Below are positions 17,701 to 44,524 of a DNA stretch of 64,000 bases, piece after piece. Every line of letters starts with the position of its first letter. The first letter of the stretch is position 1. The position numbers were made by a program, and so were the translations under genes. The notes beneath the pieces were generated by a model. The model was not told the DNA's origin and ran no database searches. It saw only the letters and a program-made list of their open reading frames with translations. The stretch comes from Microcoleus sp. FACHB-672 (GTDB taxonomy: Bacteria > Cyanobacteriota > Cyanobacteriia > Cyanobacteriales > Oscillatoriaceae), in NCBI RefSeq assembly GCF_014695725.1, contig NZ_JACJOU010000019.1:248001-312000 (forward strand), in the 5' to 3' direction.

Positions 17701-18947
17701 ATGAAGCTTATTACCGAACAATGAACCTTGATGTTGCCGAAGCCATTGAACTCGGTGTCTATGACAGTGGCTATGAACACTTCATTAAACACGGTCAATT
17801 TGAGGGAAGAAATCCCAGCATTCTGTTTAACGAAAGCTATTATCTTACCCAAAATCCTGAAGTGGCTGCTGCTGTGGCTGCCGGCACTTACCATTCGGGA
17901 TTTGAACATTTCATCCAAGTTGGTTTATTTGCCGGCTTAAATCCGAGCGCTTTATTCGATAACCAAGCCTATCTCGCCCAAAATCCAAAAGTGGCTGCTG
18001 CTGTGGCTGCCGGCACTTACCATTCTGGATTTGAGCATTTCCTCAAAATCGGCTTATTTGACGGAAGTTCGCCTCAACTATTGCTGAGTAAGCAAGTGTT
18101 TGATTTTGAAAGTATGACCGAGTATTTATCAACTGCCGGTCGAGGAGCATTGGCCTTATTCTTTGATGAAAATGCTTATTTAGCTGAAAACCCAGATATT
18201 AGAGAAGCCATTGCAAACGGCGATTTTAAAACTAGCTTAGAACACTTCCTAAAATTTGCACCGGCTCAAGGACGCGGTTTGATTTCCCTATTCTTTAACG
18301 AAGAGACTTATCTCGCTGAAAACTCAGATGTTGCCTATGCAGTCGCGCAGGGAAGTTATATCAGCGGGTTAGAACACTTCTTGCAATTCGGTATCTTTGA
18401 AGGCCGCGATTCCCGATTCTTGTTATTTGATGAAGGCTTCTATCTTGCCAATAACCCAGATGTTCAAGAAGCAGTTGATAAAGGTGTGTACCGTAGTGGC
18501 TTTGAACATTACGAACGCTATGGACAAGCTGAAGGACGAAATCCTAGCAATTTATTTGATGAAAAATTCTATTTAGCTGAAAATGCTGATGTCGCAGAGG
18601 CTGTGGCTGCCGGCATTTATCGCAGTGGCTTTGAACACTTCGTTAAGCATGGTTTGTTTGAAGGACGTAATCCCTGCACTTTATTCGATAACCAGCGCTA
18701 TTTAGCAGAAAATGCTGATGTTGCCGAGGCTGTCTCTGCTGGCATTTATCGCAGTGGCTTTGAACAATTCCTAAAAGTAGGATTACAAGCGGGACGAGAC
18801 TCGCAGTTTTTGCAGTTTAACGAAGTCGCTTATTTAGCAGCGAATGCAGATGTAGCCGCTGCTGTGGCGGCTGGAGTTTACAGCAATGGGTTTGAGCATT
18901 TTAAGCGGTTTGGCCGGTTTGAAGGTCGTGCCGGCTTGATTGGATAA
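8742..18947 (+). CDS. Giant repeat-built secreted protein (DUF4347, phytase-like esterase, CSPG/cadherin-like repeats, C-terminal 44-residue repeats)
   Basis: A single intact frame of 3401 residues with ATG at 8742 behind AAGGATAGAGG. There is no Sec signal, which with the composition (Asn, Thr, Gly, Asp rich) suggests type I secretion. Domains in order: DUF4347 at about 112-266, with His in VSHGG (H170) and Cys in IYGCDVA (C209); phytase-like esterase at about 271-613; Ig/cadherin-like segments; two lamin-tail-like segments near 896 and 1229 (both with DEW-x-E-LY); six exact 109-residue cadherin/CSPG-like units at 1667-2320, then further VNDAPxANND-type units; a Pro-Thr-Glu linker at about 2715-2862; and eleven ~44-residue repeats to the end. 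It is probably a surface adhesin or sheath component. No secretion gene is adjacent. Confidence 0.88.
13740..15701 (+). repeat. Six tandem 327-bp repeats inside the exoprotein gene
   Basis: Units start at 13740, 14067, 14394, 14721, 15048 and 15375 and the next domain starts at 15702, so the period is exactly 327 bp (109 codons) six times. Each encodes V-N-D-V-x-V-L-A-T-N-A followed by [22 protein letters not shown] and FTFTVSDG, the CSPG/cadherin-3 style. DNA identity between units is high, with blocks shared between non-adjacent units, which implies recent duplication and gene conversion. A more diverged seventh unit is at about 16290-16615. Confidence 0.92.
16885..17330 (+). repeat. Low-complexity Pro-Thr-Glu linker coding repeat
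   Basis: About 445 bases made of variants of CCAATTCCCACGCCTACTCCGGAACC encoded in units [16 protein letters not shown] and PEPAP. Written in short words (for example ACTCCGGAACCG) they form a tandem array that produces long spurious frames on both strands. In the protein it is a rigid extended spacer between the repeat stalk and the C-terminal module. Confidence 0.9.
17424..18940 (+). repeat. Eleven ~44-residue C-terminal repeats
   Basis: Eleven units share the consensus [18 protein letters not shown] followed by [24 protein letters not shown]. Unit five is followed by a spacer of about 25 residues that splits the array into five plus six. Similar units occur at the ends of other large bacterial exoproteins, where their role is unclear; a place at the extreme C-terminus would fit a secretion or cell-surface attachment function. 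Confidence 0.88.
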
Positions 18948-19699: not shown

Positions 19700-22561
19700 T
19701 TAAAACTTAACATAACCGGCAATTAATTGAGCGATCACTTCTAATAAATGTGGCTCACTGTAAGGTTTAGTAAAATAATGAGAAGCTCCTAATTCCAGAG
19801 CCATTTGCCGGTGTTTTGCCCCACTGCGAGAAGTGAGCATCGCCACAGGAATGGCGGCAAACTTGGGATCAGACTTAATCTCACGCAACAGTTCAAATCC
19901 ATCCATTCGCGGCATTTCAATATCAGCAATCACTAAAGAAAAATCCACATTTGTCTGCAATTTTTCTAAAGCATCTTGACCATCTTTTGCCTGAACCACC
20001 CGATAGCGTGCGCGTGTTAAAGCAAGTCCCAGGAGTTGGCGGATAGCGTAAGAATCATCCACCACTAAAATTTGCGGATGTGACTTAGAAGGCAGCAACA
20101 CCGGCACCGTCGTTGCCTGTCTAGCATGGCCGGCTGTCGGTCGCTTATCGGGAACCGCAACGGCTGTGGCATTTCTCGTCTGAAATTGACTGACTAAATC
20201 ATCCACATCAAGAATCGTTACCACCCGACCATCTCCCAAAATCGTACAGCCAACCACCCCATGAGGCTTAGACAAGGGGGCCGGCAAGGGTTTGACGACG
20301 ATTTCCTGCTGACCCACGATGCGCTCAACAGCCGTTGCTAAAATCCCTTCACTAGATGCTAAAACCAATACAGGGATGTAATCTTGAGCGATGGGATCGG
20401 GAGAAGGGCCATCCGGATGAAGAATGCTGTAGTGAATCAACTCCTGTAAACGCACCAAGCGAACAAATTCATCCCGCCAACGCACCATCGGTTGAGTGCC
20501 GGCCCTATGGACTTGATGGGCTTGAAGGTGCAAAATCTCTTCCACCGCATCCAAAGGCACCGCAACGGTATTACGATCCGTTTTCACCAGCAACGCCTCA
20601 GTGATGGAAAGCATTAGCGGTAGCTTCAAAATAAAACTGGTGCCTTTCCCCGGACGGGAGTCCACTTTCACCGTTCCCCGCACCTGCCGCAGATTGGTGC
20701 GAACCACGTCCAAACCTACGCCTCGACCGGAAAGATCCTGCACTTTATCCACTGTGCTAAACCCAGGCCAAAAGAGAAATTCATAGAGTTCAGCCGTGGA
20801 AAGCTCTTGCGCTTGTTCCACCGTCATAAACTCTTTTGCCACAATTTGCCGGCGAATCGCTTCCGGATCAATGCCTTTGCCGTCATCCGTGACCGTAATA
20901 ATCGTTTGACCGCCTTGATGACGCGCTTCAATTTCAATTTGGCCACTCACCGATTTCCCGATAGCTTTGCGAACCTCCGGCGGTTCAATTCCGTGATCAA
21001 AAGCGTTCCGCACCAGATGCACTAAAGGATCACGCAAAGCATCAAGCAAGCTTTCATCAATTTTCGTATCGCGTCCCAACAGCAGCAAATTGACTTCTTT
21101 ATTGTAGGCTTGGCACAAATCTCGCAACGCTCTAGGCACATGATCCACGGCCCGACTGAACGCCACCACCCGCAGTTGCATCACTCGTGAGCGCAGTTGG
21201 TCGGTAATGCGACGTAAATGATCGGTACTGCGCTCAAATTTGCTGGCTAACTCATCAATTTTACTAGCTGACTGGGAGATTGCTTGAGTGGTTTCTATCA
21301 CTTCTTGAGCTGTGGAGTGGAATTCTGTATATTCATCCATCTCCAAACTATCGAATACCGAATTAAGGATTGATAAGGCAGATTTTTTCAAACCTATTTC
21401 TTCATTTTTAATTCTCCACTCTCCATCTCCTATACTCATGCGATCATACTCTTCACGCAGTTGACCGCCATAGTGATTTAAATCTAAAATTTTCCGGCGA
21501 ATTCGCTTGACTTCTGAGCGCAACTGTGATTCTTGAAGTTCTAAATTTGTTCGATTAATCACCAATTCACCGACCAAATTTACCAGCTCAGTCAGACGTT
21601 CCAAATCAATCCGAATAGTGGGCCGCTGTACGGTCGTTGAAGAGATAGGATTAGGTGCTGGGGCTTGAGGTTGCGGAATGACAACGGTTTCTTCTACAGG
21701 AATAATTTTTTCTTCAGTTTTTAGCTCTTCGGTTTCTGGGATCTGGGGGGAAACTAAATCTTCCTCAACCTTTACTTCTGTAATGACTGCCGGCACATTA
21801 ATCGCCTGCCCAGAACATATTTGTTCGCGGGCAGCTTGCAAATTTTGTGCAACCGCCCATCCTGAAGATTTCAACTGTTCTAAACTGAGATTAGGAGCAT
21901 CAATTAAGGGGCGCAAGCGGTCAGCAATTTCGCCAAATTCAGGCAGTTGCAGCATCCCTGATAGCCCAGAAAGCTGATAATAAATTTCATTAATAACAAC
22001 TAATGTTTTCTCTAATGTCTCTGTTTTAGCTTGAGAAATTTCTGATTCTAAACGATTGATAATCGGTGGAACTTCATTTTCAAAGATGGCTTTAAGCAGG
22101 CCGGCACCGGCAGCATTCTTAGAAACCGAGACAGGAGGAGGCGTTTTTTTACCAAATTCAGTTTCTAACTGCTCTTTAATCTGAGCAATTGCCTTAAAAT
22201 CTTCCTCAATATTGCTGTCTCCTGATGCGGATTTGTTAGCAATCTTTTTAAGGTGATCAACTCCCTCCAGCAAGGCAGTAATCGTTGTTTGATTTAGGTT
22301 GGAGATATTGGTGCCATCACGCACAATGGCGAAACAATCTTCCAGTACATGAGCCGCCTTGGCAAGTTCTTCAAAGCCAAACATTAAAGCCGATCCTTTA
22401 ATGGAATGGGCGGCGCGAAACATTTCTTTGACCAGTTGCGAGCGAACGTCACCGGCGCTGCTGCTTTCCATTGCTAATAAATTTGTCTCTAGCAATTGGA
22501 GAAATTCCTGTGCTTCTGCAAAAAATGCACCAATTAGCTGATGAAAATCTTCAGAGTTCAT
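19700..22561 (-). CDS. CheA-type hybrid histidine kinase (Hpt, kinase, CheW, receiver)
   Basis: The 953-residue protein has an N-terminal Hpt domain with H52 in AAHSIKGSA, a linker to about 310, the CheA dimerisation segment (RLTELVNLVGELVINRTNLE), HATPase boxes HLVRNAFDHGIE, DDGKGID and GRGVGLDVV, a CheW-like domain at about 665-800, and a C-terminal receiver with D880 (VIADIEMPRMDG). This PilL/HmpE-like architecture phosphorylates the two small CheY proteins encoded upstream. The dimerisation region holds an in-frame insertion at about residues 375-402. It is 90 bases downstream of the receptor gene in the same operon. ATG at 22561. Confidence 0.93.
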   Translation of the reverse strand: MNSEDFHQLIGAFFAEAQEFLQLLETNLLAMESSSAGDVRSQLVKEMFRAAHSIKGSALMFGFEELAKAAHVLEDCFAIVRDGTNISNLNQTTITALLEGVDHLKKIANKSASGDSNIEEDFKAIAQIKEQLETEFGKKTPPPVSVSKNAAGAGLLKAIFENEVPPIINRLESEISQAKTETLEKTLVVINEIYYQLSGLSGMLQLPEFGEIADRLRPLIDAPNLSLEQLKSSGWAVAQNLQAAREQICSGQAINVPAVITEVKVEEDLVSPQIPETEELKTEEKIIPVEETVVIPQPQAPAPNPISSTTVQRPTIRIDLERLTELVNLVGELVINRTNLELQESQLRSEVKRIRRKILDLNHYGGQLREEYDRMSIGDGEWRIKNEEIGLKKSALSILNSVFDSLEMDEYTEFHSTAQEVIETTQAISQSASKIDELASKFERSTDHLRRITDQLRSRVMQLRVVAFSRAVDHVPRALRDLCQAYNKEVNLLLLGRDTKIDESLLDALRDPLVHLVRNAFDHGIEPPEVRKAIGKSVSGQIEIEARHQGGQTIITVTDDGKGIDPEAIRRQIVAKEFMTVEQAQELSTAELYEFLFWPGFSTVDKVQDLSGRGVGLDVVRTNLRQVRGTVKVDSRPGKGTSFILKLPLMLSITEALLVKTDRNTVAVPLDAVEEILHLQAHQVHRAGTQPMVRWRDEFVRLVRLQELIHYSILHPDGPSPDPIAQDYIPVLVLASSEGILATAVERIVGQQEIVVKPLPAPLSKPHGVVGCTILGDGRVVTILDVDDLVSQFQTRNATAVAVPDKRPTAGHARQATTVPVLLPSKSHPQILVVDDSYAIRQLLGLALTRARYRVVQAKDGQDALEKLQTNVDFSLVIADIEMPRMDGFELLREIKSDPKFAAIPVAMLTSRSGAKHRQMALELGASHYFTKPYSEPHLLEVIAQLIAGYVKF

Positions 22562-22651
22562 AAGATTTTATTTGTCATTTGTCTTTTGTCTTGTAATTGC
22601 GAGGGCTAACTGATTGCAAAAATATTAGCGATTTTGCCATCAGTTTAATCA

Positions 22652-25600
22652 CTAACTGCGAAAATTTGCCACAGAACTTTGGAGTTTAGTAACGGTAACG
22701 GCTAAGCCATCCAGGGAAGTGCGAACTTCCATCGATTTTGCTGCAGTCGTGGAGGAAATAATGTTGACTTGCTGCATACTGCCGGCAATTTCTTCTGCAA
22801 AAGTGACTTGCTTGGTAGCAGCGCGGGTGATGTTTTGCACAAGGGCGTTAATTTGCCGGCTCACTTCGATGATGGCAATTAAATAAGTTTTAGCTTCTGT
22901 TGCTAATTGCGTGCCGGCAACGACTTCTTGAGTGCCGGCTTCCATCGCCTGCATCACCCGTCCAATTTCACTGCGAATCTGCTCAACGATCTCGGAAATT
23001 TCTTCAGTGGCACTGCCAGAACGTTCGGCAAGTTTTCTTACTTCTTCAGCAACAACGGCGAAACCTTGTCCCTGTTCGCCGGCACGTGCGGCTTCAATGG
23101 TTGCATTCAAAGCCAGTAGGTTCGTTTGGGCGGCAATTTGGGAAATAGAGGTAACAATTTTCCCGATTTGTTGTGAAGATTCGCCCAAGCGTTTCATCAT
23201 TTTAGAAGTTTGGGCGATAGTTTGGCGGAGGGTATTAATTCCTTCAACCGCCCGATCAACCGCAACGCCGCCGGCACCGGCTGTTTCTGATGCCTGCTGG
23301 GCAACTTGTTCCGTGCGGTTGGAAACATCACAAACATCTTTAATCGAGTTCACCATGCGTTCAATTTGTTTGAGTGCTCCCTCAATTTGCTGCGCCTGCA
23401 TCCGAGCTTGCGTGGCTAATTCATCCGTGTTGCTAATCGATTCACTCGTAGCAGAACGAACTTGATTTGCCACATCTTGAATGCCGATAACAACTTTTCT
23501 CAGAGAACTGATCAGAAAATTAAAAGAATCCGCAATCGCTCCCAAGCTATCATTATTCACTTCAGCTCTGACCGTTAAATCTCCTTTAGCAGCTCCTTTC
23601 ACTTCATTTAACAGTTTTAGCGCTTGTTGTGTGAGAGAATCGGCTTCGGCTTTGCGCTCTGTAGCGAGTTTTTCTAGTTGTTCCTCAGCGAATTGACGCT
23701 CGGTAATATCGAAACGAATGCTAATATATCTAACGATCTTGCCGAAGGGATCAAAGATCGGCGCAATTGTCGTATCTACCCAGTACACTGAGCCATCTTT
23801 GCGCTTATTTTTGATTTCTGCTTTCCAAACTCTGCCACGAGAGATCGTCGTCCACATCTCTTTAAAAAACGCGATGGAGTGATAGCCAGAGTTAAGAATT
23901 CGATGGTTTTGCCCAATCAGTTCTTCCCGATTGTATCCAGAAATTTCACAAAACTTGTCATTGGCAAATGTAATCGTTCCTTTTGCATCGGTTTCACTGA
24001 CAATGGCTGCCTCATCCAGGGCATTTTGGCGGTTTTTCAGCTCTTGCAACAATCGTTCCTGCTCGCCAGCCAACTGTTGCAGGCGTTCTTGGGCCTTCTT
24101 GGCCGACGTTATATCATAGAAAACAACAACGCCACCTTTCGCCACACCTGTTTCATCTTTGAGGGGGCTGCCGTTGACTCTCGCCCAAAGACCTTCTGGC
24201 GCACCGGCATGACGGATAAACACTTCGCAATTGTCAACAACTTCTCCCCGGATCGCTCTTGCTAGGGGTAAATCAGCATCTGGGTAACGCGTAACTCCAT
24301 CGGCTAAATACACACCATATTGCTCTGACCATTGGTTCGGGGTAATATCATCGGCCATGCTGCCCCCCAAAATCTTTTCTGCGGCGGGGTTGAATACCAA
24401 AAACTTGCCATTTTGATCAGCAACCAAAACGCCATCCCCCATGCTGTTGAGGACAGACTGCAAGATTTGAGTTTGCTGCCGCAGATCCGTCTCGGAACGC
24501 GCTAATTCAGCGGCTGTTTGCTGCAATTCGGTTTCTGCTTGTTTGCGTTCGGTGATGTCATCGTGGACACCAACCCACTCTCGAACTCTGCCGTCATGCT
24601 CTAGGATTGGCACAGCCCGAACGCTCATATATCTGTATAGACCGTCGTGCCGGCGCACCCGCTGCTCTACTTCATAAACGCTGCGTTTAGTCAAGGCAGC
24701 AGACCACTCTTGTGATGTGTGGGGACGATCATCAGGGTGAATAGCGCTCAGCCACCCCCATCCTTTCTGTTCGTTATAAGTTTGGCCGGTGAAAGCAGTC
24801 CACTCAGTCTGCTCTGTGATAAATTCACCTTCGGCACTGGTAGACCAAACGATTTGAGAGGTTGCGGCGATTAAAGAGCGATAGCGTTCTTCCTTCTGAC
24901 GCAGGGCGTCTTCTGCCTGTTTGCTGTCGGTAATATCGCGGGCAATAGCATACAGCAATTGATGTTCGACAGAAGCACCTGTCGTCCAAGACAACCATCG
25001 ATAGGAGCCATCTTTGCAACGGTAGCGATTTTGAAAAGATAGGCTGTTACTACTGGCAGATAATTTTTCAGCTTCAGCAACGGTTGCTGCATGGTCATCA
25101 GGATGGACAAACTCTAGAAAAGGTCGGTCTATCAGTTCCTCTGTGGTATAACCCAATGTCTTTGTCCAACTGGGGTTAAGCCGCTTGAAGTTGCCATCAA
25201 AGCCGGCGATGCACAGCAAATCTAGGGAAAGGGTAAAGAAGCGGTCGCGTTCTTCGGTAGAACGGTTTAATTCATTGCTTCGTTCGCTGATACGCGCTTC
25301 GAGTTCCTCATTGAGCTTGCGTAGATCCGCTTCAGCCTGCTGGCGTTGATTATCCAGAAATCCCAAGGATCTGGCATTCCACCAAATCAGGCCGGCAAAA
25401 ACGACGAGATTCAGGATCGCCAGCAAGGAGATAGATACTTCGGTGTCGTAAGACTTGGCGCGATAGCCACTTAAAATCATCCAACCCAAAATCGGTGGAA
25501 CTGCAATCACTGCCGGCGACAGTTGCCGCGCCATCAATCCGCCGGCATTATTCGCGGTGCCAACGACCATTAATCCCCGATCTGGACGGGCAAATAGGAT

Positions 25601-26236
25601 GCCTAAGCTCAGCAAGATAAAGCCTACAGCGGCGTGCAAGGCCATTTGGGTATAGGAACCAACGCCATACAGGGTTTTGACGTGATAAACGTAACCCAAC
25701 AACCCCAACAATGCCACCAACAAGCCGATCAGGCTTAGAATTTGCATGGACTGGTAGTAGGCATAGGGTCCGACCAATAGCAGCAACGCCCCTCCCAAGA
25801 TGACAAAATTGAAGGCTGTATTCGGTGCCATTCGGCCTGGGGCAGAGGTGCCAAAGGTGTCGGTTGAAGCCTTAAATAGAAGTTCGTCAATGCCAAAGTT
25901 TCGCCCCAAGCCATACTGGAGCAAGGTTAGCAAACCGATGCCGAGAACAGTGCCGGCTAAAATTTGCCCCCACAGACGCTTAGACTGGTCGGTTGGATGC
26001 CGGTGCCATAGCCACAACGCTGTGCCACTCAAAATAAAGCACGCTGCTGCGTTTGCTTTCATCGTGACTAACCCAGGCACTACAGTTTTGAGGGTGGGGA
26101 TGTTTAACATCCAACCCACAATGACCATACTGCCAATGACAATAACAGCAACACTGGCTTTTCGAGAAAAGGCTTGCAGTGAAGGAATAAGGTTTTGGGT
26201 CTGTGTTTCCTGACTTTGCGGATATATCTGTTCCAT
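22652..26236 (-). CDS. Methyl-accepting chemotaxis protein with multi-pass membrane sensor and four PAS domains
   Basis: The 1194-residue protein begins with about eight hydrophobic helices (residues 30-305), a MASE-like multi-pass input region. Four PAS domains follow at roughly 330-445, 455-575, 592-715 and 742-860, then a PilJ-type HAMP-like segment ([10 protein letters not shown]) and the methyl-accepting signalling domain with its hairpin tip [20 protein letters not shown]. It would feed light, redox or ligand signals to the CheA encoded next. A cyanobacteriochrome GAF, the usual phototaxis module, is absent. The ATG at 26236 has AAGGAGG upstream. Confidence 0.92.
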
Positions 26237-27075
26237 TTTCTCGCCTCCTTAATGAGTGTTTCTTTAGAGTTTTTAACGCTTTGCCGGCATAAAATCTTAG
26301 AAACTGAAGATTTTGTAAACTTATCTAAATTGCCAAATGTTTTAACTGATAACTTAGTTACAAAATGTTTAGGTTAGAGAACACTAAGTTATCTAACGCT
26401 TCCCCTTTAACTTTTTAAGGTAAAGAGGTTGTTGCGAGGAATCCACCCTGACTTACACCGCCTTAGCGCTCTAGCCTAGACTTCACACCGTTCACGTTAT
26501 ATTGGCTGTTTTTTAACACAAAAACAATAAATTATCCACTTTTTTTAAAAATAATTTTTTAATTTTGTAATGATATTGTACCCGCTAGCTCGCCTCCTTG
26601 ATTAAGCTATGCAAGGGAGGGGATATTGATGCCGGCTCATAGCGACTCCTAACACTTGATTCAAAGCCAGCTTTTCTGCGAAGCAATAAGGCAGAGCTTG
26701 ATCGCTATTAAAAACTCTCATAACTGACTTTAATATTTTTAATGAAGTCACAATAAATTCAATTTTATTTAGTTTATATTTTGGCATTTCTGTCTATTAA
26801 CATTTGATTTTTATTGAAATGATGGCTAAAAAAGAAATGGTTTTTATTGAGTGACGCTACAGCATAAAATCGTAAACTTAGCCGCTACCCACTCTTAATT
26901 TTCTCAAAATTATTGGCGGGAACATCCCCTTTTTGTAAAGTTGTCATGCCGGCATCTTGCCCGCTTATCGTCATCTGTGGGAGCATCTTGCTGCCACTCT
27001 AATATTTTGGAAAATGCCAGATGCACCTATTATTGGCAAATTCATCAGCAACTTTTAAAGATGAAGCACGACAGC
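26237..27075. other. Intergenic gap inside the chemotaxis cluster
   Basis: This 839-base A/T-rich gap separates the receptor gene from the CheW gene. It carries the receptor ribosome binding site and, at about 26940-27015, a CATCTTGCC-type dispersed repeat. Open frames here (for example 26602-26787 minus) have no codon bias or ribosome site that I trust. Its size implies a separate promoter for the receptor-CheA part. Confidence 0.5.
26938..27015. repeat. CATCTTGCC-type dispersed repeat, copy 1
   Basis: Contains GCATCTTGCCCG, then TCATCTGTGGGAGCATCTTGC, and ends CTAATATTTTGG. Related blocks with the same order (CATCTTGCCCG, CCATCTGT, CTAATATTTTTG) stand at 35566-35660, and a shorter piece at about 47400-47430. 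HIP1 (GCGATCGC) lies nearby at 27095-27102. Confidence 0.7.
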
Positions 27076-27597
27076 TTACCAGCGATCAGATTGTGCGATC
27101 GCTTCAACATCCAAAATCATCACTAACCGTCCCTCAGAGTCATAAAGACCTTTAAGCAGCGGAGCGAGTTCTTCGCTCACTTCTACTGCTGAAACAATTT
27201 CCTCTGTATTCAGCGACAACACCCCTTCTACCTGAGAAACGGCTAATCCCATCCGCATCACTCTTAAGCTTACATCTTGAGGTTCTGGGGCTTCTATGAC
27301 TAAGATTCGGCTATGAGAATGTTGGGTGTCCACAGGTTCGGCTCCTATCAGGCGACCAAAATCTCCCACTGCCAAGATTTCACCCCGCAAGTTGGTTAAT
27401 CCTAAGACAAAGGGGAGGGCGTTAGGAATCGGTGAAATCGACTGATCATTCAGGCAAAGCACTTCTCGAACGGTGATTAGCTCAACAGCGAAAAGACTTC
27501 CTTCTTGCCCAAAAAGCAGGAACTGCTGTGTAGGGGCAGTGTGGTGAAAACCTGCAGATCCGTTTGGATAAGAGCCGGCAGAAACAGATACATTCAT
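27076..27597 (-). CDS. CheW-like coupling protein (PilI/HmpC-like)
   Basis: The 173-residue protein is a CheW domain: QQFLLFGQEGSLFAVELITVREVL near residues 24-47, PFVLGLTNLRGEILAVGDF at about 62-80, and a closing EGRLVMILDVEAIAQS. After a ~20-residue tail the whole protein is the coupling fold that links receptor and CheA. It follows the small CheY genes and precedes the receptor, the order of cyanobacterial pil and hmp loci. ATG at 27597; the site before it (AAAAGCGGT) is weak. Confidence 0.88.
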   Translation of the reverse strand: MNVSVSAGSYPNGSAGFHHTAPTQQFLLFGQEGSLFAVELITVREVLCLNDQSISPIPNALPFVLGLTNLRGEILAVGDFGRLIGAEPVDTQHSHSRILVIEAPEPQDVSLRVMRMGLAVSQVEGVLSLNTEEIVSAVEVSEELAPLLKGLYDSEGRLVMILDVEAIAQSDRW

Positions 27598-36149: not shown

Positions 36150-38807
36150 ATGTCAACCCTAGTTATCGTCGAATCTCCCACAAAAGCACGCACCATCCGT
36201 AATTACCTGCCTTCCACCTATCGCGTGGAAGCGTCAATGGGTCATGTGCGCGATCTCCCGTCGTCTGCCGAAGAAATTCCCGAAGCTGTCAAGGGAGAAA
36301 AATGGGCGCAGCTTGGGGTGAATGTGGAGTCCGACTTTGAACCCTTGTACGTTGTCCCCAAAGACAAAAAGAAAATAGTCAAGCAGCTCAAAGATGCACT
36401 GAAAGATGCGGATGAACTGATTTTGGCCACAGACGAAGACCGGGAAGGGGAAAGCATTAGCTGGCATTTGCTGCAATTGCTAAAACCAAAAGTGCCCACA
36501 AAGCGGATGGTATTTCACGAAATCACACAAGAGGCGATCCGCGAAGCCTTGAAAAACTGCCGCAACATTGATGAGCAGTTGGTACGCGCCCAAGAAACGC
36601 GGCGAATTTTAGACCGGCTTGTGGGATACACCCTTTCTCCCTTACTGTGGAAAAAAATTGCCTCAGGTTTGTCAGCAGGGCGAGTTCAGTCGGTTGCTGT
36701 GCGGCTTTTGGTGCAGCGGGAACGTCAGCGTCGCGCCTTCCGCCAAGGTAGCTACTGGGATCTCAAAGCGACTCTGACCCACGAAAAAACGCCTTTTGAT
36801 GCCAAACTGGTCATGTTAGCCGGCACGAAGTTAGCCACCGGCAGCGATTTCGATGAAGCCACAGGTCAAATTATTGCCGGTCGGCGGGTGGTTTTGCTCA
36901 ACGAAGCTGAGGCGAGAGCATTACAGGATAGATTATTCGGCAAAACCTGGACAGTTTCTAACTTAGAAGAACGCCCCGTTACCCGCAAGCCGGCCCCTCC
37001 GTTTACCACATCAACCCTGCAACAAGAAGCGAACCGCAAACTGCGGATGTCTGCCCGTGATACGATGCGAACCGCTCAAAGTCTGTACGAGCAAGGGTAT
37101 ATTACCTATATGCGAACCGACTCGGTGCATTTATCCGACCAGGCAATCACGGCGGCACGTAGTTGCGTCGAGCAAATGTATGGGAAGCAGTATCTCAGTC
37201 CGCAACCCCGGCAATATACGACGAAAAGCAAAGGTGCACAAGAAGCACACGAAGCCATTCGTCCTGCCGGCAGCAGTTTCCGTACCCCGCAACAAACTGG
37301 CTTAGCCGGTCGAGAACTGCAACTGTATGATCTGATTTGGAAACGCACCGTCGCCTCCCAAATGGCAGACTCGCGCCAAACTCATATCACCGTAGAAATG
37401 CAAGTCGAAGATGCCGGCTTTCGTTCTAGTGGCAAGCGCATCGACTTCCCCGGTTTCTTACGGGCTTATGTGGAAGGTTCCGACGATCCCGACGCCGCTA
37501 TTGAAGATCAAGAAGTGATTCTGCCGGCCCTCAAAGTTGGAGATCGCCCCAAATGCCGCGATCTTGAAGCAATCGGTCACGAAACCCAGCCGCCGGCACG
37601 TTTCACGGAAGCTTCTTTGGTAAAAACCCTGGAAAGTGAAGGCATCGGGCGTCCCAGCACCTACGCCAGCATTATTGGCACCATTATTGATCGCGGCTAT
37701 TCCCAACTCGTCAGCAACGCCCTCATTCCTACCTTCACAGCGTTTGCAGTCACCAGCTTGCTGGAAAAACACTTTCCCGAATTGGTAGACACCCGCTTTA
37801 CCTCCCGCATGGAACAAACCTTGGATGACATATCCACCGGCGAAGCGAAATGGCTGCCCTACTTGCACGAATTCTTCCTGGGCCAAAAAGGTTTAGAAAC
37901 CCAAGTCAAAGAACGGGAAAACCAGATCGACCCTAGTGAAGCGCGGACGGTGGAACTGGAGAACTTAGCGGCTAAAGTTCGGATCGGGCGTTTTGGCCCT
38001 TACATTGAAGTAGAAAATGGCAATGGGCCGGTGACTGCCTCAATCCCCAAAGATTTGACACCGGCAGACTTAGATCCGGAGAAGGTAGAGGGGCTGCTGC
38101 GCCAGAAAACAGAAGGCCCGGACGAAGTAGGCCGGCACCCCTTAACAGGTGAATTGATTTATCTCAAAATCGGCACTTACGGCCCTTATGTCGAACTGGG
38201 TGAAGTTTCTGAGGAAAACAAGAAACCTAAACGCGCCTCTTTGCCTAAAGGCGTGAAGCCTGAAGATGTGACACTAGAAATGGCGGTGGGGCTGCTTTCC
38301 CTGCCGCGCACCTTGGGAACCCATCCAGAAACCGGCGGGAAAATCCAAGCAAGTCTGGGGCGTTTTGGCCCGTATGTGGTACATGACCAAGGCAAGGAAG
38401 GGAAAGATTATCGTTCCCTGAAAGCCGGTGATGATGTCTTGACAATTGAAGTTAAACGTGCATTGGAGCTACTGTTAGAGCCGAAGAAGGGCGGGCGCGG
38501 CACCCGGAGCAAGACTAAGGCAGCTTTGCGAGAACTCGGCCAGCACCCAGCGGATGGGGAGCCGGTGAACGTCTACGATGGGCCGTATGGGCCGTATGTG
38601 AAGCACGGGAAAACCAATGCTTCTGTACCCGAAGACCAATCTGTTGATAATTTGACGCTAGCAGAGGCGGTGGAACTGTTGGCGGCCAAGGCTTCATCTG
38701 GCAAGAGTTCGTCTAAATCGAGTGGCTCAAAATCAAGTAGCGCGACCAAAACAAAGGCTGCCGGTCAGAAGTCAACAACCCGCAAAACAACTCGTAAAAA
38801 GGCTTAG
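36150..38807 (+). CDS. topA: DNA topoisomerase I (type IA)
   Basis: The 885-residue protein opens [20 protein letters not shown], the TOPRIM region with DEDREGE, and carries the catalytic Tyr320 in [13 protein letters not shown]. After the core ([23 protein letters not shown]) come repeated [11 protein letters not shown] / [12 protein letters not shown]-type modules (four) that replace the zinc fingers of E. coli TopA, then a Ser/Lys-rich tail. It relaxes negative supercoils. Length and order match cyanobacterial TopA. ATG at 36150 with AAGGTGCC upstream. Confidence 0.95.
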
Positions 38808-38856: not shown

Positions 38857-40242
38857 TTAGCTATTTGCCTTCACCAATGCCTTACGTTTGCGCTTGAACT
38901 GGGAGCCGGCACCCAAGGCTCCAAAGGCTAGCAACCCAAACGCGACAGAAGGTTCAGGGACGTGTTCTGATTGATGGCAAGGCATATCGCAGGGCATCGC
39001 GATCTCGTCAGGACACGGTTCTGTCCCATCCCCGTGATATGCCATGTGGCCCCAAGGGTTGTACATATAACCTGTCTGACTGTGTTCGATTGTGTTGTCT
39101 GACAAATCGGACGGAGCGCTGGCCATCATAAACAGAGATGAATCTGTAGGAGTAGCCGTTGCGGTAACTCCCGGCAAGCCGGGCATTAAATCTCTCAAAT
39201 CATTGGCGATGGGAATGTTTCCTGTGTTCCAGGGGAACATCGGGTCAAGCAGGTTGTGTCCGTAAGGCTGACCGCTGGAGGGATAAAAACTGTTTCCCCA
39301 GCGTCCGTTTAGCTGCCATTGTCCCCAAAGGCGATCCACATTAGCATGAACCAGGAAGAACATCGGATCGTTGGGAGAATTTTGAAGGTTCATAGAACCT
39401 CCAATCCAATTGTGCATACTGTTATGTAACCCGGTGCCGGTTTCTATGCGGGATCGAAAAGCGTTGTAGCTAGTCTGGGCAAGTGCACCATTTACCTGAG
39501 TTTGCGTGCCCAAAGTTGTCCAATCGCGCAGACTGCGTGTGAGTTCTCGCGGGGTGCCAGTCGATAGTCCTGTCCACGCGCCCCTGTTTGTAGTATTGCT
39601 CAAGTCTCTTCTTAACAGCCAGCCATTGGCACGGGAGAAAGGCCCAGACTGAACTGTTCCGCCTCCGACACCCCCAGCCCCGCCATTGGGACCCATAAAG
39701 TTATTTTGAAAAATAATGTTTCGTGTGGCGGTTTGATTTGTCCAATCCCAGTAGGGAAGTGTCACACTGGAATCTACTGTTTGTAAGGCTCTTTCAAATT
39801 CATCTAAAAACTGCCGGTGCCACGGCAGAAAGGCTGCATTGCCATGAGCGCCATTCACTAATGTGGTGCCATTTGGAGCGAGACGGCCTGTCATATCCAT
39901 TGTTGCTAAATGGGTGGCCACAAATTGGTCATACTCGCTAATACGAACGCCGTTCGGGGTGGTGACAAATCTTTGAGTTTTTAAGGCGACGACGGCATTG
40001 ACGAACCTATCTATCTCAGTGCGGGTCATCGTCGCGGCATTTCTTCTAACCTGCAAAGGTCCACTGGTATTGCCAGAGTTGGGCATGGTGTCATATCTGT
40101 AGCCCAGACGCGTGAAATCTATAACGCTCGCCGCTGTCGCATTGCTTGTAGAAAAAGTATAGGCTTGAGCCGGATTCGCACAGAAAGCGACAATCGTGCC
40201 GGCGATTAAGCCGATGCCGGTGAAAGCACGTTTGAGATCCAT
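38857..40242 (-). CDS. Secreted tyrosinase-family copper oxidase with PEP-CTERM tail (paralogue 1)
   Basis: The 461-residue protein has a Sec signal peptide (cleavage near AQAYTFS, residue 27) and the tyrosinase domain. Copper A ligands are H111 (VATHLA), H133 (GAHGNA) and H142 (PWHRQF). Copper B ligands are in LHNSMHNWIGG and FFLVHANVDRLW. Just before the tail stands CPDEIAMPCDMPCHQSEH, then VPEP, a hydrophobic stretch and KRKRK, a PEP-CTERM sorting signal. Tyrosinases oxidise phenols, but substrate is unknown here. It is paralogous to the 40949 gene. ATG at 40242 behind GGGGGAA. Confidence 0.9.
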   Translation of the reverse strand: MDLKRAFTGIGLIAGTIVAFCANPAQAYTFSTSNATAASVIDFTRLGYRYDTMPNSGNTSGPLQVRRNAATMTRTEIDRFVNAVVALKTQRFVTTPNGVRISEYDQFVATHLATMDMTGRLAPNGTTLVNGAHGNAAFLPWHRQFLDEFERALQTVDSSVTLPYWDWTNQTATRNIIFQNNFMGPNGGAGGVGGGTVQSGPFSRANGWLLRRDLSNTTNRGAWTGLSTGTPRELTRSLRDWTTLGTQTQVNGALAQTSYNAFRSRIETGTGLHNSMHNWIGGSMNLQNSPNDPMFFLVHANVDRLWGQWQLNGRWGNSFYPSSGQPYGHNLLDPMFPWNTGNIPIANDLRDLMPGLPGVTATATPTDSSLFMMASAPSDLSDNTIEHSQTGYMYNPWGHMAYHGDGTEPCPDEIAMPCDMPCHQSEHVPEPSVAFGLLAFGALGAGSQFKRKRKALVKANS

Positions 40243-40948
40243 AAGATTCCCCCAATAAAAAGCGCAAAATTAATATAGGCATATTTAAAATGCCATTGGC
40301 GCTATGCGAAGATTGCTTAGCTAGCGCCTAGGCGATAAGTTCCAATACCCTGCTTTGTGCAGTGATGCGAGTAGTTTGGCTTCAGTTCACGCAAAGCAGA
40401 GCCGGCTGAGAATTACAACAAATTTCTTCTCAACAGGATTAGCAACTATTTTTAGTTGGTTATATTGACAAGCTTGACATGAGTCTTTTCTTCGAGTTTT
40501 CACGAGCGGAAAGAATCTCGAACCCCGACTCTCTAAGAGCTTGACCTTTTATGTTATCTATGCAACTAATCATAAACTTATTTGGTGCTATTTTGTTGCC
40601 AAAATGGCAGTTTTTTTTGGGTAAAACAAAGCCTCAGAAAATCTCTCAGATGGGGAGGGTCATCAGATCGTTGCCGACTCATCAAAACATAATTTTTTGT
40701 ACCGCCGTGAGCCGGCATAGAAGCGAGCGAACTGTAGATTCAACTGCCCGAAAGACACTGTAGAGGCGAGATGGCGCAGTTATTGAAGAGTACATGAATG
40801 CTCAAATCATTCAAAACTACTTATTTTTTTAATGTTTGTTTTATCCTTCTGAAATCTCTGGAAGCTTGTAGAAGTTTAACAGAGGCGGTATGGCCGGCAA
40901 CCAACTAACTGATTCAGTGAGTTAGGCTCAAGTTAGCCGGCAGTTATT
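40243..40948. other. Intergenic region between the two tyrosinase genes
   Basis: Of these 706 bases the right end lies after the upstream tyrosinase stop and the left end holds the promoter of paralogue 1. An inverted pair GGCGCTA (40298-40304) and TAGCGCC (40322-40328) lies about 60 bases upstream of the start and could be an operator. A frame at 40551-40763 (70 codons, plus) shows no coding signs. No other gene is seen. Confidence 0.45.
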
Positions 40949-42307
40949 TTAAGCCTTTTGTGGTTGTTTACCCTTACGCAAGCGACCGGCACCCAATGCC
41001 CCAAATGCCAATAGACCAAATATAGAAGCCGGTTCGGGAACGTGTTCTGATTGATGGCAGGGCATATCACAGGGCATATTTATTTCGTCAGGACACGGCT
41101 CATCCCCATGATAGGCACTATGGCCCCAAGGATTGTACATATTGCCGGTAGTATCTGAGAATAAGTCTTCCGGGGCGCTAGCCATCAGGAACGATGAGAA
41201 ATTAGAATTGGGTGGACTAACACCTGGTAAACCCGGGATTAAGGCCGCTAAGTCAGCGGCAACCCTTGATTGACCTCCATCCCAAGGCCACATTGGCTGG
41301 AGCCGGTCGTGTCCGTAAGCCTGGGTACCAATAGCAGCATAAGCCCCTACACCATCCAAACGACCAGTACCCGCAACAGCAGTCTGCCATCTGGCCCAGA
41401 GGCGGTCTATGTTGGCATGAAGCATCCAAAACTCTGGAGCGTTGGGAGAAGTCATGGTGTTCATTGAGCCTCCCACCCAGTTGTGCATGGGGTTGTGGAT
41501 GTTTAACTCGAGCCGAGTGTTTAGAGTAAGATAGCTGGTTGTATTGAGTGCTGTATTTTCCTGGGCAGCGGTGATCATTCCCCGATTCGTTGCAGTTCTT
41601 GGGGCGAACACGCCCAAATTGCGTCTGAGTGGTTGTCTGCCGGTGGAGGTTCCCAGCCAAACGTCGCCACTCAAGTCACTTCTCTGAACCCATCCGTTGG
41701 CCGCTGTGAAAGGCCCTGTTTGAACCGGCCCACCAGGAGTTCCATTGGGGTTAATCCCATTGCCTCCGAGAAAATTGTTTGTAAAGAGCACGTTTTGAGA
41801 GCCATTAATATCCGTCCAATCCCAGTAGGGAATTGTGACAGTCGGATCTACTGTTTGTAGTGCCCTTTCAAATTCATATATAAATGCCCGGTGCCACGGC
41901 AAAAAGCCGGCCCTGCCATGTGCTGCATTGACTAAGGGACGCCCATCTGGCCCAGGGCGACCGGCTAAATCCATCGCTCCCAAATGGGTTGCTACAAATT
42001 GGTCGTACTCACTGACGACAGCGCCGTTAGCAGCCGTCACTGTTCTTGTTTTTAACGTCTGGATAGCACTAACGAATCTTGATATCTCAGTCGCATTCAA
42101 GCTAGCCGCGCTTCTTCTGACCTGTAAACCTGCTGTGCCGCCTGGAACATTTATACCGCTGTATGTGTAACCCAGCGCGCTAAAATCCAGAACGTCATTT
42201 GGTCTGTAGTTGCGGCTAAAAGTATATGCTTGCGCTTGTACTGCACCAAACACGATAGCACTGCCTGTTATTAAGCCGAGCCAGCTAGAAGCGCGTTTTA
42301 GATTCAT
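40949..42307 (-). CDS. Secreted tyrosinase-family copper oxidase with PEP-CTERM tail (paralogue 2)
   Basis: From the ATG at 42307, preceded by GAAGGATAATTAC, the protein has 452 residues and begins MNLKRASSWLGLITGSAIV, a Sec signal ending near AQAYTFS. The tyrosinase motifs mirror paralogue 1: VATHLGAMD, HGRAGFLPWHRAFIYEFERAL, HNPMHNWVGG and MLHANIDRLW. The C-terminus again has a Cys/His motif (CPDEINMPCDMPCHQSEH), VPEPASIFGLLAFGALGAG and a basic end. An upstream in-frame start at 42367 would add 20 residues that spoil the signal. Tandem duplication with divergence is the likely origin. Confidence 0.9.
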   Translation of the reverse strand: MNLKRASSWLGLITGSAIVFGAVQAQAYTFSRNYRPNDVLDFSALGYTYSGINVPGGTAGLQVRRSAASLNATEISRFVSAIQTLKTRTVTAANGAVVSEYDQFVATHLGAMDLAGRPGPDGRPLVNAAHGRAGFLPWHRAFIYEFERALQTVDPTVTIPYWDWTDINGSQNVLFTNNFLGGNGINPNGTPGGPVQTGPFTAANGWVQRSDLSGDVWLGTSTGRQPLRRNLGVFAPRTATNRGMITAAQENTALNTTSYLTLNTRLELNIHNPMHNWVGGSMNTMTSPNAPEFWMLHANIDRLWARWQTAVAGTGRLDGVGAYAAIGTQAYGHDRLQPMWPWDGGQSRVAADLAALIPGLPGVSPPNSNFSSFLMASAPEDLFSDTTGNMYNPWGHSAYHGDEPCPDEINMPCDMPCHQSEHVPEPASIFGLLAFGALGAGRLRKGKQPQKA

Positions 42308-43291: not shown

Positions 43292-44386
43292 TTAGGACAT
43301 TGCCGCTAAATCAGGAAAAACTTCCCGCACCGCCGGATGGACGATCTGGTGGTTTCGCACATTTAGCCCACTTGCCAAAACCGGCTCAGAGTCTAAGGCT
43401 TTGATCCCCTGATTTGCCAACTTGAGTACATACGGTAAAGTGCTGTTATTAAGGGCTTGGGTTGCAGTCCACGGAACTGCCCCAGGCATATTCGGTACCC
43501 CATAGTGAACAACGCCCTCTTCTACATAGGTGGGATGGGTATGAGAGGTTGGGCGCAATGTTTCCACACACCCCCCCTGATCTACCGCAACATCAATAAT
43601 CACAGAGCCTGGACGCATTTTTCCGATAAGATTTCGAGATACAAGCACCGGCGCGCGTCGTCCTAATACTAAAACAGCCCCGATCAGCAAGTCAGCATCT
43701 GGAACGAGGGACTCAATTTGCAAGGGCTGACTGTAAAGTAGCTGAACTCTAGAGCCAAAGAGGGTTTCGAGATAGGCTAAACGCTCAACGTTGATATCTA
43801 AAATCTGAACTTGAGCGCCCATTCCTACAGCCATTCGTGCCGCTTCTGTGCCAACAACACCGGCACCTAAAATCACGACTTTACCGGGCATTACCCCAGG
43901 AACTCCGCCTAAGAGAACGCCTCGCCCTCCCTGCTGGCGCTCTAAAAATCTCGATCCAAACTGCACTGCTAACCTGCCGGCGATGATGCTCATCGGCGTA
44001 AGTAGAGGCAGTCGTTTATCTGGTAGTTCGACGGTTTCATAAGCGATCGCGCTGACGCCAGAATCAATCAGATGCTCTGTCAAAGTCCGATCAGCAGCTA
44101 GGTGCAAATAGGTAAAGAGCAACTGCTCTTTCTGGAGAAACGGGTACTCTGGCGACAGCGGTTCCTTGACTTTAACAACGAGTTCTCTATCCCAAGCGTC
44201 TTTGGCGCTGCCAACAATTTTAGCGCCGGCCTGAACATAATCTTCATCCTGCAAGCCGGCACCGGCACCCGCGCCGGTTTCCACAAACACCGAATGACCC
44301 TTTTCACACAATACCCGAACGCTGCTCGGACTCAACCCGACACGAAACTCCTGATCCTTCGTTTCCTTAGGAACGCCAATTTCCAT
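43292..44386 (-). CDS. ald: Alanine dehydrogenase
   Basis: The 364-residue protein from the ATG at 44386 (AAGAGGTGGCAG upstream) begins MEIGVPKETKDQEFRVGLSP, the conserved start of alanine dehydrogenase, and has the nucleotide fold KVVILGAGVVGTEAARMA in the middle and VPNMPGAVPWTATQALNN near the C-terminus. It converts L-alanine and NAD+ to pyruvate, ammonia and NADH, reversibly. A 29-residue upstream extension to 44473 is in frame but unlike the family. It is divergent from the molbindin gene. Confidence 0.93.
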   Translation of the reverse strand: MEIGVPKETKDQEFRVGLSPSSVRVLCEKGHSVFVETGAGAGAGLQDEDYVQAGAKIVGSAKDAWDRELVVKVKEPLSPEYPFLQKEQLLFTYLHLAADRTLTEHLIDSGVSAIAYETVELPDKRLPLLTPMSIIAGRLAVQFGSRFLERQQGGRGVLLGGVPGVMPGKVVILGAGVVGTEAARMAVGMGAQVQILDINVERLAYLETLFGSRVQLLYSQPLQIESLVPDADLLIGAVLVLGRRAPVLVSRNLIGKMRPGSVIIDVAVDQGGCVETLRPTSHTHPTYVEEGVVHYGVPNMPGAVPWTATQALNNSTLPYVLKLANQGIKALDSEPVLASGLNVRNHQIVHPAVREVFPDLAAMS

Positions 44387-44524
44387 CTGCCACCTCTTTA
44401 TGACCCATGCTTTTAGCTTATGTCTTTGCTGACTTGCGCTGCGAATACTCTCACTGTATGACAGCTGGCTCATGGTTTGCTGCTATCCTATCGAGAGAGT
44501 TTGGCCATATTTGAGGTGCCGGCA

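Follow-up and report, generated by a model that had tools for sequence, protein, structure and literature searches.

A tandem pair of exported cyanobacterial tyrosinases with an N-terminal tyrosine-motif segment and a Cys3/His tail: a candidate natural circular permutation

The window analyzed here, a 64,000-nucleotide stretch of the genome of Microcoleus sp. FACHB-672, possesses two tyrosinase genes, which are designated as tyr1 (b-type) and tyr2 (a-type). Their host is a soil cyanobacterium. The initial annotation had described them as tandem exported paralogs, and this was confirmed: the positions were right, both genes lie on the minus strand, the proteins are 55% identical (258/469), and each has a signal peptide, as read by eye and from the alignment. 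The pair is found in G386, G388, and G389, and the pair with both flanking genes is kept in two genera, Microcoleus and a relative, across four genomes. The tyr2 frame also has an alternative TTG start at 42367, 60 nt upstream of the ATG. The features of the two genes are as follows.

38857..40242, minus strand: tyr1 (b-type) tyrosinase gene, 461 amino acids, stop included
40162..40242, minus strand: tyr1 signal peptide, predicted to end between AQA and YTF
40090..40137, minus strand: tyr1 tyrosine-motif segment TAASVIDFTRLGYRYD, read as relocated from profile scores and alignment with other window-type proteins
39313..39939, minus strand: tyr1 PF00264 catalytic domain with CuA and CuB (Pfam match)
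39028..39072, minus strand: tyr1 conserved C-terminal element GYMYNPWGHMAYHGD (alignment)
38962..39015, minus strand: tyr1 Cys3/His tail CPDEIAMPCDMPCHQSEH (DNA pattern and conservation)
38860..38961, minus strand: tyr1 PEP-CTERM sorting tail VPEPSVAFGLLAFGALGAGSQFKRKRK... (over the TIGR02595 cut-off in the genome scan only)
40949..42307, minus strand: tyr2 (a-type) tyrosinase gene from the ATG, 452 amino acids, stop included
42227..42307, minus strand: tyr2 signal peptide, Sec-type, predicted to end between AQA and YTF
42161..42205, minus strand: tyr2 tyrosine-motif segment RPNDVLDFSALGYTY, read as relocated (C-terminal in other tyrosinases)
41381..42013, minus strand: tyr2 PF00264 catalytic domain with CuA and CuB (Pfam match)
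41102..41146, minus strand: tyr2 conserved C-terminal element GNMYNPWGHSAYHGD (alignment)
41042..41095, minus strand: tyr2 Cys3/His tail CPDEINMPCDMPCHQSEH (DNA pattern and conservation)
40952..41041, minus strand: tyr2 PEP-CTERM sorting tail VPEPASIFGLLAFGALGAGRLRKGK... (over the PF07589 and TIGR02595 cut-offs)

The sequence KRAF near the start of tyr1 may indicate a Tat-like signal peptide. Both proteins matched PF00264 (tyr1, E 3.9e-44; tyr2, E 1.3e-42) at 152 and 147 bits against a curated cut-off of 22.6. Two complete copper sites had been claimed for the pair, and indeed all six ligand histidines are present in both proteins; their columns show no variation across an alignment of 28 rows. 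Alignment A2 took in 25 of the 38 loci from a core-pattern scan of contigs. The core fold and both copper sites are common to TyrBm from Bacillus (Priestia) megaterium (PDB 3nm8), Streptomyces MelC2, and the pair, whereas the cysteine tail and the PEP-CTERM region are extra in tyr1 and tyr2. Scores against the MelC2 equivalog NF047834 of NCBIfam (164.7 and 146.7 bits) were below its 450-bit cut-off. Unlike the Streptomyces MelC1/MelC2 system, the window genome has no MelC1 caddie gene (PF06236) over the cut-off, with a best match of 12.2 bits against 27.

The C-termini of the pair consist of a PEP motif, a hydrophobic stretch, and a basic end, as in PEP-CTERM substrates. In protein scans, tyr2 scored 21.7 bits for PF07589 (cut-off, 20.7) and 17.2 for TIGR02595 (cut-off, 16); tyr1 was under both cut-offs (17.0 and 14.9 bits, respectively) and exceeded that of TIGR02595 in the genome scan (18.8 bits). 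Searching the genome for exosortases, as had been suggested, revealed cyanoexosortases B (445.8 bits) and A (273.2 bits), both over the cut-off. In a report on Nostoc punctiforme, deletion of crtB is described as altering the extracellular PEP-CTERM proteins, some being reduced or lost and two increased (PMC12188702).

Downstream of the core end, both proteins continue with MYNPWGHxAYHGD, then CPDxxxx[M/L]PCDxPCH, and then the PEP-CTERM region. The tail consensus of the pair is CPDEI[A/N]MPCDMPCHQSEH, and the two tails are identical at 17/18 positions, in line with the earlier claim that both proteins end in a Cys/His motif and a PEP-CTERM tail. Its near-identity despite a diverged core was likewise borne out, since the region covering NPWGH and the cysteines is identical at 32/35 positions versus 165/301 for the core. 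Window-type homologs, 8 proteins in 4 genomes, all carry the motif (8/8), and each predicted mature protein contains three cysteines, all in the tail (8/8). These cysteines and one histidine are conserved; the methionines are not (L and K in G386). With up to 2 mismatches allowed, a 24-base degenerate pattern of the motif matched only the tyr1 and tyr2 sites in the 6.37-Mb genome, where the reversed control gave 0 matches. The 35-residue tail had no match in the PDB up to E 10, one strict motif pattern found 0 instances in viral contigs, and 89 plasmid records had a partial tyrosinase match (15 of them listed), 0 covering 80% of the query. The Cys3/His tail is new.

Outside the window-type group, the motif occurs in 0/69 other tyrosinase-like ORFs, including the PEP-CTERM ones L011, L056, L059, and L061. 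The initial annotation would have been refuted by absence of the motif from homologs; it is present in the window-type proteins and in no others, and the suggested look among other PEP-CTERM proteins did not find it. Three of these proteins, L059 from Nostoc sp. NMS4, L061 from Crocosphaera MO_167.B6, and L056 from Mojavia pulchra, are conventional cyanobacterial PEP-CTERM tyrosinases that share with tyr1 and tyr2 an N-terminal hydrophobic signal (by eye), the tyrosinase core, and the VPEP tail. However, they have the normal order, in which YGYTYDT or a similar sequence is followed a few residues on by the PEP-CTERM region, and they possess neither the Cys3/His tail nor the NPWGH element. In the core tree they lie within the clade that encloses the window-type proteins (support 0.811), while the 8 window-type proteins themselves are monophyletic (support 0.998). 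The motif is also missing from the tails of the genome's 15 other PEP-CTERM matches, and a sorting signal common to PEP-CTERM proteins was rejected for this reason. This absence, together with a DNA pattern unique to the pair, weakens the sorting role that the initial annotation had considered. As judged from the sequences compared, the motif is specific to one clade and is no general feature of PEP-CTERM proteins or tyrosinases.

The order searches drew 388 genomes and the phylum searches 386, and the family holds 8. The tail was found in 4/388 genomes of the order, plus one match treated as chance: in a fifth genome (G538), where a first look by pattern gave nothing, the tail profile matched 16 positions of a 58-aa frame (E 0.009), and a second look gave SYSPWGHHQYSSDE without a cysteine tail. 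Because the phylum tail pattern requires MPCxMPCH, it would not pick up the form seen in G386. Contigs were covered by a single scan using two core peptide patterns, so that scan could have overlooked window-type genes elsewhere.

The characteristic that sets the pair apart from other tyrosinases at the opposite end is the position of the tyrosine motif, VTPxDTLDxRxYGYTYDT, which forms the end of the catalytic domain in other tyrosinases and directly follows the signal peptide in tyr1 and tyr2. The initial annotation, while supported in its exported tyrosinases, shared motif, and exosortases, had missed this segment. A profile of conventional segments matched TyrBm near the C-terminus (residues 272–287, E 3e-4), and the corresponding segment of a Streptomyces tyrosinase is at 257–272 of 281 (E 0.32), whereas that of tyr1 and tyr2 is N-terminal. 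The N-terminal motif is found in 8/8 window-type proteins and in 0/36 of the other tyrosinase-like ORFs in which the motif was found. An HMM built from 16 conventional C-terminal segments matched the N-terminus in 6/7 window-type proteins at 22.0–28.5 bits (i-E 9e-7 to 1e-4), the top score among 20000 shuffled sequences being 8.7 bits. In the full-length HMM scan tyr1 reached just 4.3 bits; its N-terminal region alone scored 9.4 bits, above 2000/2000 shuffles. Scored alone, the N-termini of 8/8 window-type proteins beat all 2000 shuffles each (9.4–33.5 bits), and the C-terminal regions of 8/8 stayed within chance. Among the 77 tyrosinase-like ORFs, the segment lies before CuA in 7, all window-type, and after CuA in 36, 0 of them window-type, while 34, tyr1 included, had no match of 8 bits.

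In the PDB, a profile of the 8 N-terminal segments found its best match in the post-CuB segments of molluscan hemocyanin units (best E 1e-17), the linker-like NxxGxT included, although individual matches are weak singly (best i-E 0.022). The equivalent place was matched in 7/8 units of the best hemocyanin chain, one unit having no match, and one weak match (-2.4 bits) was out of register. Molluscan hemocyanins are multi-unit oxygen carriers in which the segment, unlike that of tyr1 and tyr2, comes after CuB and leads into a beta-domain. The same profile matched TyrBm at residues 270–287 (E 0.35), and matches to influenza hemagglutinin chains (E 0.042–0.34) were treated as chance. Comparison of the conventional and N-terminal segments, profile against profile, gave a probability of 98.1 and E 6e-14. 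At the sequence level, homologous segments therefore stand in rotated order, and we read the relocation as a natural circular permutation that probably occurred in one event.

Structure prediction gave a model-dependent view of the N-terminus. AF2 model 1, made without added fragments, did not resolve it (residues 1–32, pLDDT about 35). Model 2, whose alignment held conventional C-terminal fragments, placed residues 1–40 at block pLDDT 71–92, with one strand exactly on YTY (20–22) and another at 35–37; because these fragments were supplied as rows aligned to the N-terminus, model 2 is biased toward the permutation. Strand formation is thus a prediction of this model, and the segment would presumably dock in the canonical strand place. 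Residues 33–317 of the model aligned with 4–271 of 3nm8 (Z 26.3 over 245 residues). In some rows of the structure alignment the match opens ahead of residue 33, namely at model residue 4 for both human TYRP1 and aurone synthase and at 14 for KLH; there, some of the N-terminal stretch is thus aligned in sequence order as well. The Cys3/His tail had a pLDDT of about 30 in model 2, and no metal site is therefore predicted in it. Other rows of the structure alignment end at 335 or later, where model confidence also drops; none of the rows is informative about how the tail folds.

We consider it reasonably probable that tyr1 and tyr2 are naturally circularly permuted type-3 copper tyrosinases, paralogous to each other, exported by Sec and sorted by exosortase, and that their tail loads copper. 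Copper binding by the tail is plausible from its conserved residues, and by analogy we propose that it is an in-chain copper-loading or lid module comparable to the fungal CXXC loop and the MelC1 caddie. For the fungal pro-tyrosinases aoTYR (Aspergillus oryzae) and abPPO4 (Agaricus), a CXXC loop of the C-terminal domain is described as incorporating copper (PMC4157443). The cysteine motif is C-terminal of the core in these proteins as in tyr1 and tyr2; the fungal CXXC belongs to a seven-strand domain, whereas the tail here is a short CX7-8CX3CH sequence that is not confidently folded. Tentatively, and at rather less than even odds, we suggest that the permutation freed the core C-terminus for this built-in tail and so allowed caddie-free metallation of a Sec-exported tyrosinase before exosortase release to the sheath, in one clade. 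The tyrosine-motif segment would be translated first, directly behind the signal peptide. It is predicted to be a strand, which would lie beside the first strand of the core, the expected site of the last strand of ordinary tyrosinases; with that strand moved to the front, the freed core end would run into the short new tail. Sec would export the apo-enzyme as an unfolded thread, which the PEP-CTERM helix would keep anchored in the membrane, while the three tail cysteines and the histidine would capture periplasmic Cu(I) and hand it over to the nearby dicopper site, a Tyr/His-rich stretch possibly serving as a lid. A cyanoexosortase would then cut at the PEP motif and release the holo-enzyme, with the tail as its new C-terminus, to oxidize putative phenolic substrates at the outer surface or sheath. 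The permutation itself may have arisen when tandem tyrosinase genes fused and were partly lost.

No natural tyrosinase permutant was reported by title in the open-access literature searched. An engineered circular permutant of a bacterial tyrosinase has reportedly been described by Lee et al. in 2019 (Biotechnol Bioeng), its title implying that permutation is tolerated; that permutant is man-made, while the window-type rearrangement would be natural. A family with a front-placed segment would be a clean test of the strand's role and would set a permutant from nature beside the engineered ones. Such a rearrangement would also illustrate the ways in which an ancient enzyme can be re-wired, and the new tail makes it testable how copper reaches a tyrosinase whose export involves no known caddie.

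Regarding the segment, it is unlikely that the N-terminal copy is an added duplicate whose original survives, diverged, at the C-terminus as APxDLxxxTxGxMYN (YMY in b-types). By eye the patterns are similar ([AT]P.DL ... G.MY[ND]), and Y-M-Y precedes NPWGH in b-types; however, the C-terminal regions are no better than shuffles, the full-length scan of 7 proteins gave no second C-terminal match, and the alignment to TyrBm stops at model residue 317, before the MYN stretch. That the pair are ordinary tyrosinases with unrelated N- and C-terminal extensions is very improbable: a segment of about 16–20 residues is short, and tyr1 scores low in the full-length scan, yet coincidence fits poorly with the profile–profile E-value, with N-termini that all exceed their shuffles while the C-termini give nothing, and with the repeated match along one hemocyanin chain.

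As for the tail, a structural or attachment element, whether a disulfide to a partner or a covalent or sorting signal at the exosortase cleavage site, with no copper-loading role, appears less likely than copper loading but deserves consideration. The tail directly precedes the PEP motif and would become the new C-terminus, its odd number of cysteines would leave one for an intermolecular bond, and tails are more alike within a genome than between genera; against this, neither the 15 other PEP-CTERM matches nor other PEP-CTERM tyrosinases have the motif. Least probable of all is that CDxPCH is a CX3CH attachment motif for c-type heme in a tyrosinase-heme hybrid. Its two cysteines and the following histidine are invariant (8/8), but c-type heme attachment usually has CX2CH spacing, Pfam gave no match to a cytochrome domain, and the tail is modeled at very low confidence.

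Tails are closer within a genome (32/35 and 32/36) than between genera (25/35), and while core trees group orthologs (100), tail trees group both G386 paralogs (96 for protein, 100 for DNA). Recent gene conversion of the tails was only partly supported, because despite this tree conflict the tails are not clearly more alike than the core at four-fold sites (one-sided Fisher p 0.04–0.23 for NPWGH plus Cys; 0.14–0.65 with PEP-CTERM included). The tail similarity requires no more than an old exchange together with purifying selection.

Window-type tyrosinases, namely the two window proteins tyr1 (b-type) and tyr2 (a-type) and their orthologue pairs in three other genomes (G386, G388 and G389), are very probably circularly permuted, with the tyrosine-motif segment moved to the N-terminus. 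The initial annotation had described tyr1 and tyr2 as tandem exported tyrosinases with a shared Cys/His motif and a VPEP tail, and this was borne out: both match PF00264 far over the cut-off, have signal peptides that, read by eye, end at AQA before YTF, and finish with CPDEI[A/N]MPCDMPCHQSEH (the tail) followed by a VPEP-hydrophobic-basic end. None of the six copper histidines varies when the window proteins and 25 of 38 tyrosinase loci are aligned in 28 rows. The two genes lie 706 bases apart on the same strand, and their products are 55% identical overall. The pair and its flanking genes, the latter named from their translations and not from a family scan, are as follows.

36150-38807, + strand: topoisomerase-I-like gene, flank of the pair
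38857-40242, - strand: tyr1, ORF with PF00264 match
40949-42307, - strand: tyr2, ORF with PF00264 match
43292-44473, - strand: alanine-dehydrogenase-like gene, flank of the pair

Elsewhere in the window are an adenylate/guanylate cyclase whose N-terminus carries a Tll0287-like sensor domain (1553-3040, -), a protein of 3401 aa that combines DUF4347, phytase-like esterase and lamin-tail domains with many cadherin/Big_9 repeats (8742-18947, +), and a chemotaxis-like cluster of a CheA-type hybrid kinase, a PAS-rich MCP and a CheW-domain protein (19700-27597, -).

In conventional cyanobacterial tyrosinases, the catalytic domain ends with the tyrosine-motif segment, ...DIVTPADTLDFRKYGYTYDT, and in four of them (L011, L056, L059 and L061) the PEP-CTERM begins a few residues past it. 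In the segment-order evidence (REARRANGEMENT), the window-protein segment reads RPNDVLDFSALGYTY; TAASVIDFTRLGYRYD. It sits directly after the signal peptide, ahead of the LQVRR strand that opens the core. An HMM built from 16 conventional segments matched the N-terminus in six of seven window-type proteins (22.0-28.5 bits; tyr1, 4.3 bits only), the best of 20000 shuffled sequences reaching 8.7 bits. When scored alone, the N-termini of all eight proteins exceeded all 2000 of their respective shuffles (tyr1, 9.4 bits versus 7.8 for its best shuffle; the other seven, 27.0-33.5 bits). The C-terminal regions scored alone were within chance in all eight: two had no match, and the rest were equalled or beaten by 229-921 of 2000 shuffles. 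Among 77 tyrosinase-like ORFs in the fetched loci, 43 had a segment match of at least 8 bits. The match preceded the copper site CuA in seven, all window-type, and followed it in 36, none window-type, 16 of which had given the HMM its segments and one of which (L115) was marginal at 8.0 bits; the 34 ORFs lacking such a match include tyr1.

A profile of the eight N-terminal segments alone was compared with PDB chains (73 matches to E 10, the best 60 examined), and its top matches were hemocyanins (1e-17, 5.7e-13, 1.4e-7 and 3.3e-5). Hemocyanin isoform 1 was matched at 261, 1102, 1509, 1933, 2340, 2751 and 3160, each time shortly past the CuB part of a unit, thus in seven of eight units (0.6-17.4 bits); an eighth match, at 2689, scored -2.4 bits and was out of register. 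On the Bacillus megaterium tyrosinase TyrBm (PDB 3nm8), the N-terminal profile matched 270-287 with an E of only 0.35, and the conventional segment profile matched 272-287 (E 3e-4). Compared directly, the two profiles matched with a probability of 98.1 and an E of 6e-14. Hemagglutinins, ranked between the hemocyanins and TyrBm (E 0.042-0.34), were taken as chance.

In a first AF2 model, based on the 28-row alignment, the core was good, but pLDDT was below 50 at residues 1-32 and in the greater part of the tail. For the second, the C-terminal segments of conventional relatives were supplied as separate rows, detached from their own cores. MAFFT initially placed these fragments C-terminally, beside four rows retaining the segment or their own end, and placed them N-terminally after those four rows and two fragments were removed. 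Residues 1-40 of the second model had block pLDDT values of 71-92, a result that the fragment rows favour; two short helices (9-12; 15-18) were followed by strands at the motif Y-T-Y (20-22) and at QVR (35-37); the tail (333-395) stayed below 50, mostly around 30. Model residues 33-317 align in sequence order with 3nm8 4-271 (Z 26.3, rmsd 2.5), leaving model residues 1-32 and those beyond 317, and TyrBm beyond 271, unaligned, as permutation predicts. Other structure alignments start earlier (residue 4, TYRP1 and aurone synthase) or finish later (335-380).

When 75 of the 77 cores are placed in a tree rooted at its midpoint, the eight window-type proteins are monophyletic (support 0.998), within a clade of 39 (support 0.811) otherwise composed of conventional cyanobacterial sequences and L062, from a Proteobacteria MAG. 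One event suffices to explain the rearrangement. Tandem tyrosinase genes may have fused; if the first copy then lost its core and the second copy its end, the present order would result.

The closest named relative of the window genes is in Microcoleus vaginatus WJT46-NPBG5 (86% identity). Four of eight family genomes examined have the full-length pair, namely the window's own, G388, G389 (same genus) and G386 (a different genus); two others have other partial matches and two have none. In G386, G388 and G389, the pair order is kept and relatives of the window's two flanking genes flank it. CPD, PCD, P and CH, and YNPWGHxAYHGD ahead of them, are invariant in all eight proteins, and the tail methionines are not; the G386 tail reads CPD[I/L]VA[N/D]LPCDKPCH. 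Each predicted mature protein has exactly three cysteines, every one in the tail. A 36-residue tail profile matched five of 388 genomes of the order, the four above and G538, whose match (E 0.009, 16 positions, without cysteines) was taken as chance. An exact DNA pattern for MPCxMPCH, which would miss the G386 form, was found in one of 386 genomes drawn from the phylum, the window's own. Paralogue tails resemble each other more closely in the same genome than across genera (locus L123 of G386; the window). Core trees give a/b orthology across genera, whereas the G386 a and b tails group together, which points to exchange or co-selection of tails inside each lineage and is a sign of concerted evolution; silent sites in the tail/core comparison gave no sign of recent conversion.

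The signal peptides suggest Sec export, which would place copper loading outside the cytoplasm. The genome scan found no MelC1, the Streptomyces caddie, over its cut-off. This caddie is said to introduce copper and put a Tyr side chain into the active centre (PMC11608171), and a CXXC on a C-terminal-domain loop of fungal pro-tyrosinases is said to be responsible for copper incorporation (PMC4157443). By analogy, the tail may be a built-in copper loader, since its three conserved Cys and a His come after a stretch rich in Tyr and His, where the core now has a free end. The genome encodes two exosortases over the cut-off, cyanoexosortases B and A, as the initial annotation had proposed to check, and a cyanoexosortase should cleave the PEP-CTERM. 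Of 17 PEP-CTERM matches in the genome, 16 are over the cut-off; two of the 17 are tyr1 and tyr2, tyr2 exceeding both models and tyr1 one, in the genome scan only. In Nostoc punctiforme, CrtB is reported to be required for biofilm, motility and scytonemin, and its absence to alter extracellular PEP-CTERM proteins, some being decreased or lost and two increased (PMC12188702). Sheath phenol chemistry would be a natural setting for the putative enzyme activity.

The open-access literature yielded nothing on natural circular permutation of a type 3 copper protein; among the matches listed, there was no natural tyrosinase permutant by title and no hemocyanin or polyphenol oxidase with circular permutation. 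An engineered tyrosinase permutant is cited in the references of PMC8466947. One open-access paper, on a planctomycete, matched both tyrosinase and PEP-CTERM, and the open-access papers that mention tyrosinase, cyanobacteria and Microcoleus together are, by title and abstract start, not about this enzyme.

Exosortase-sorted tyrosinases are not specific to the window, since several genomes of cyanobacteria encode conventional tyrosinases with a VPEP tail (L011, L056, L059, L060 with VPET, and L061; record titles Mojavia, Nostoc, Cyanomargarita and Crocosphaera). By eye, L043, L066 and L078 encode long proteins with a conventional tyrosinase domain and then a VWA-like stretch (for example LDxTGSM...DG), and in a 1564-aa ORF of a record titled Candidatus Kuenenia MAG (L074:3337-8028) an apparent multicopper oxidase precedes a tyrosinase domain.
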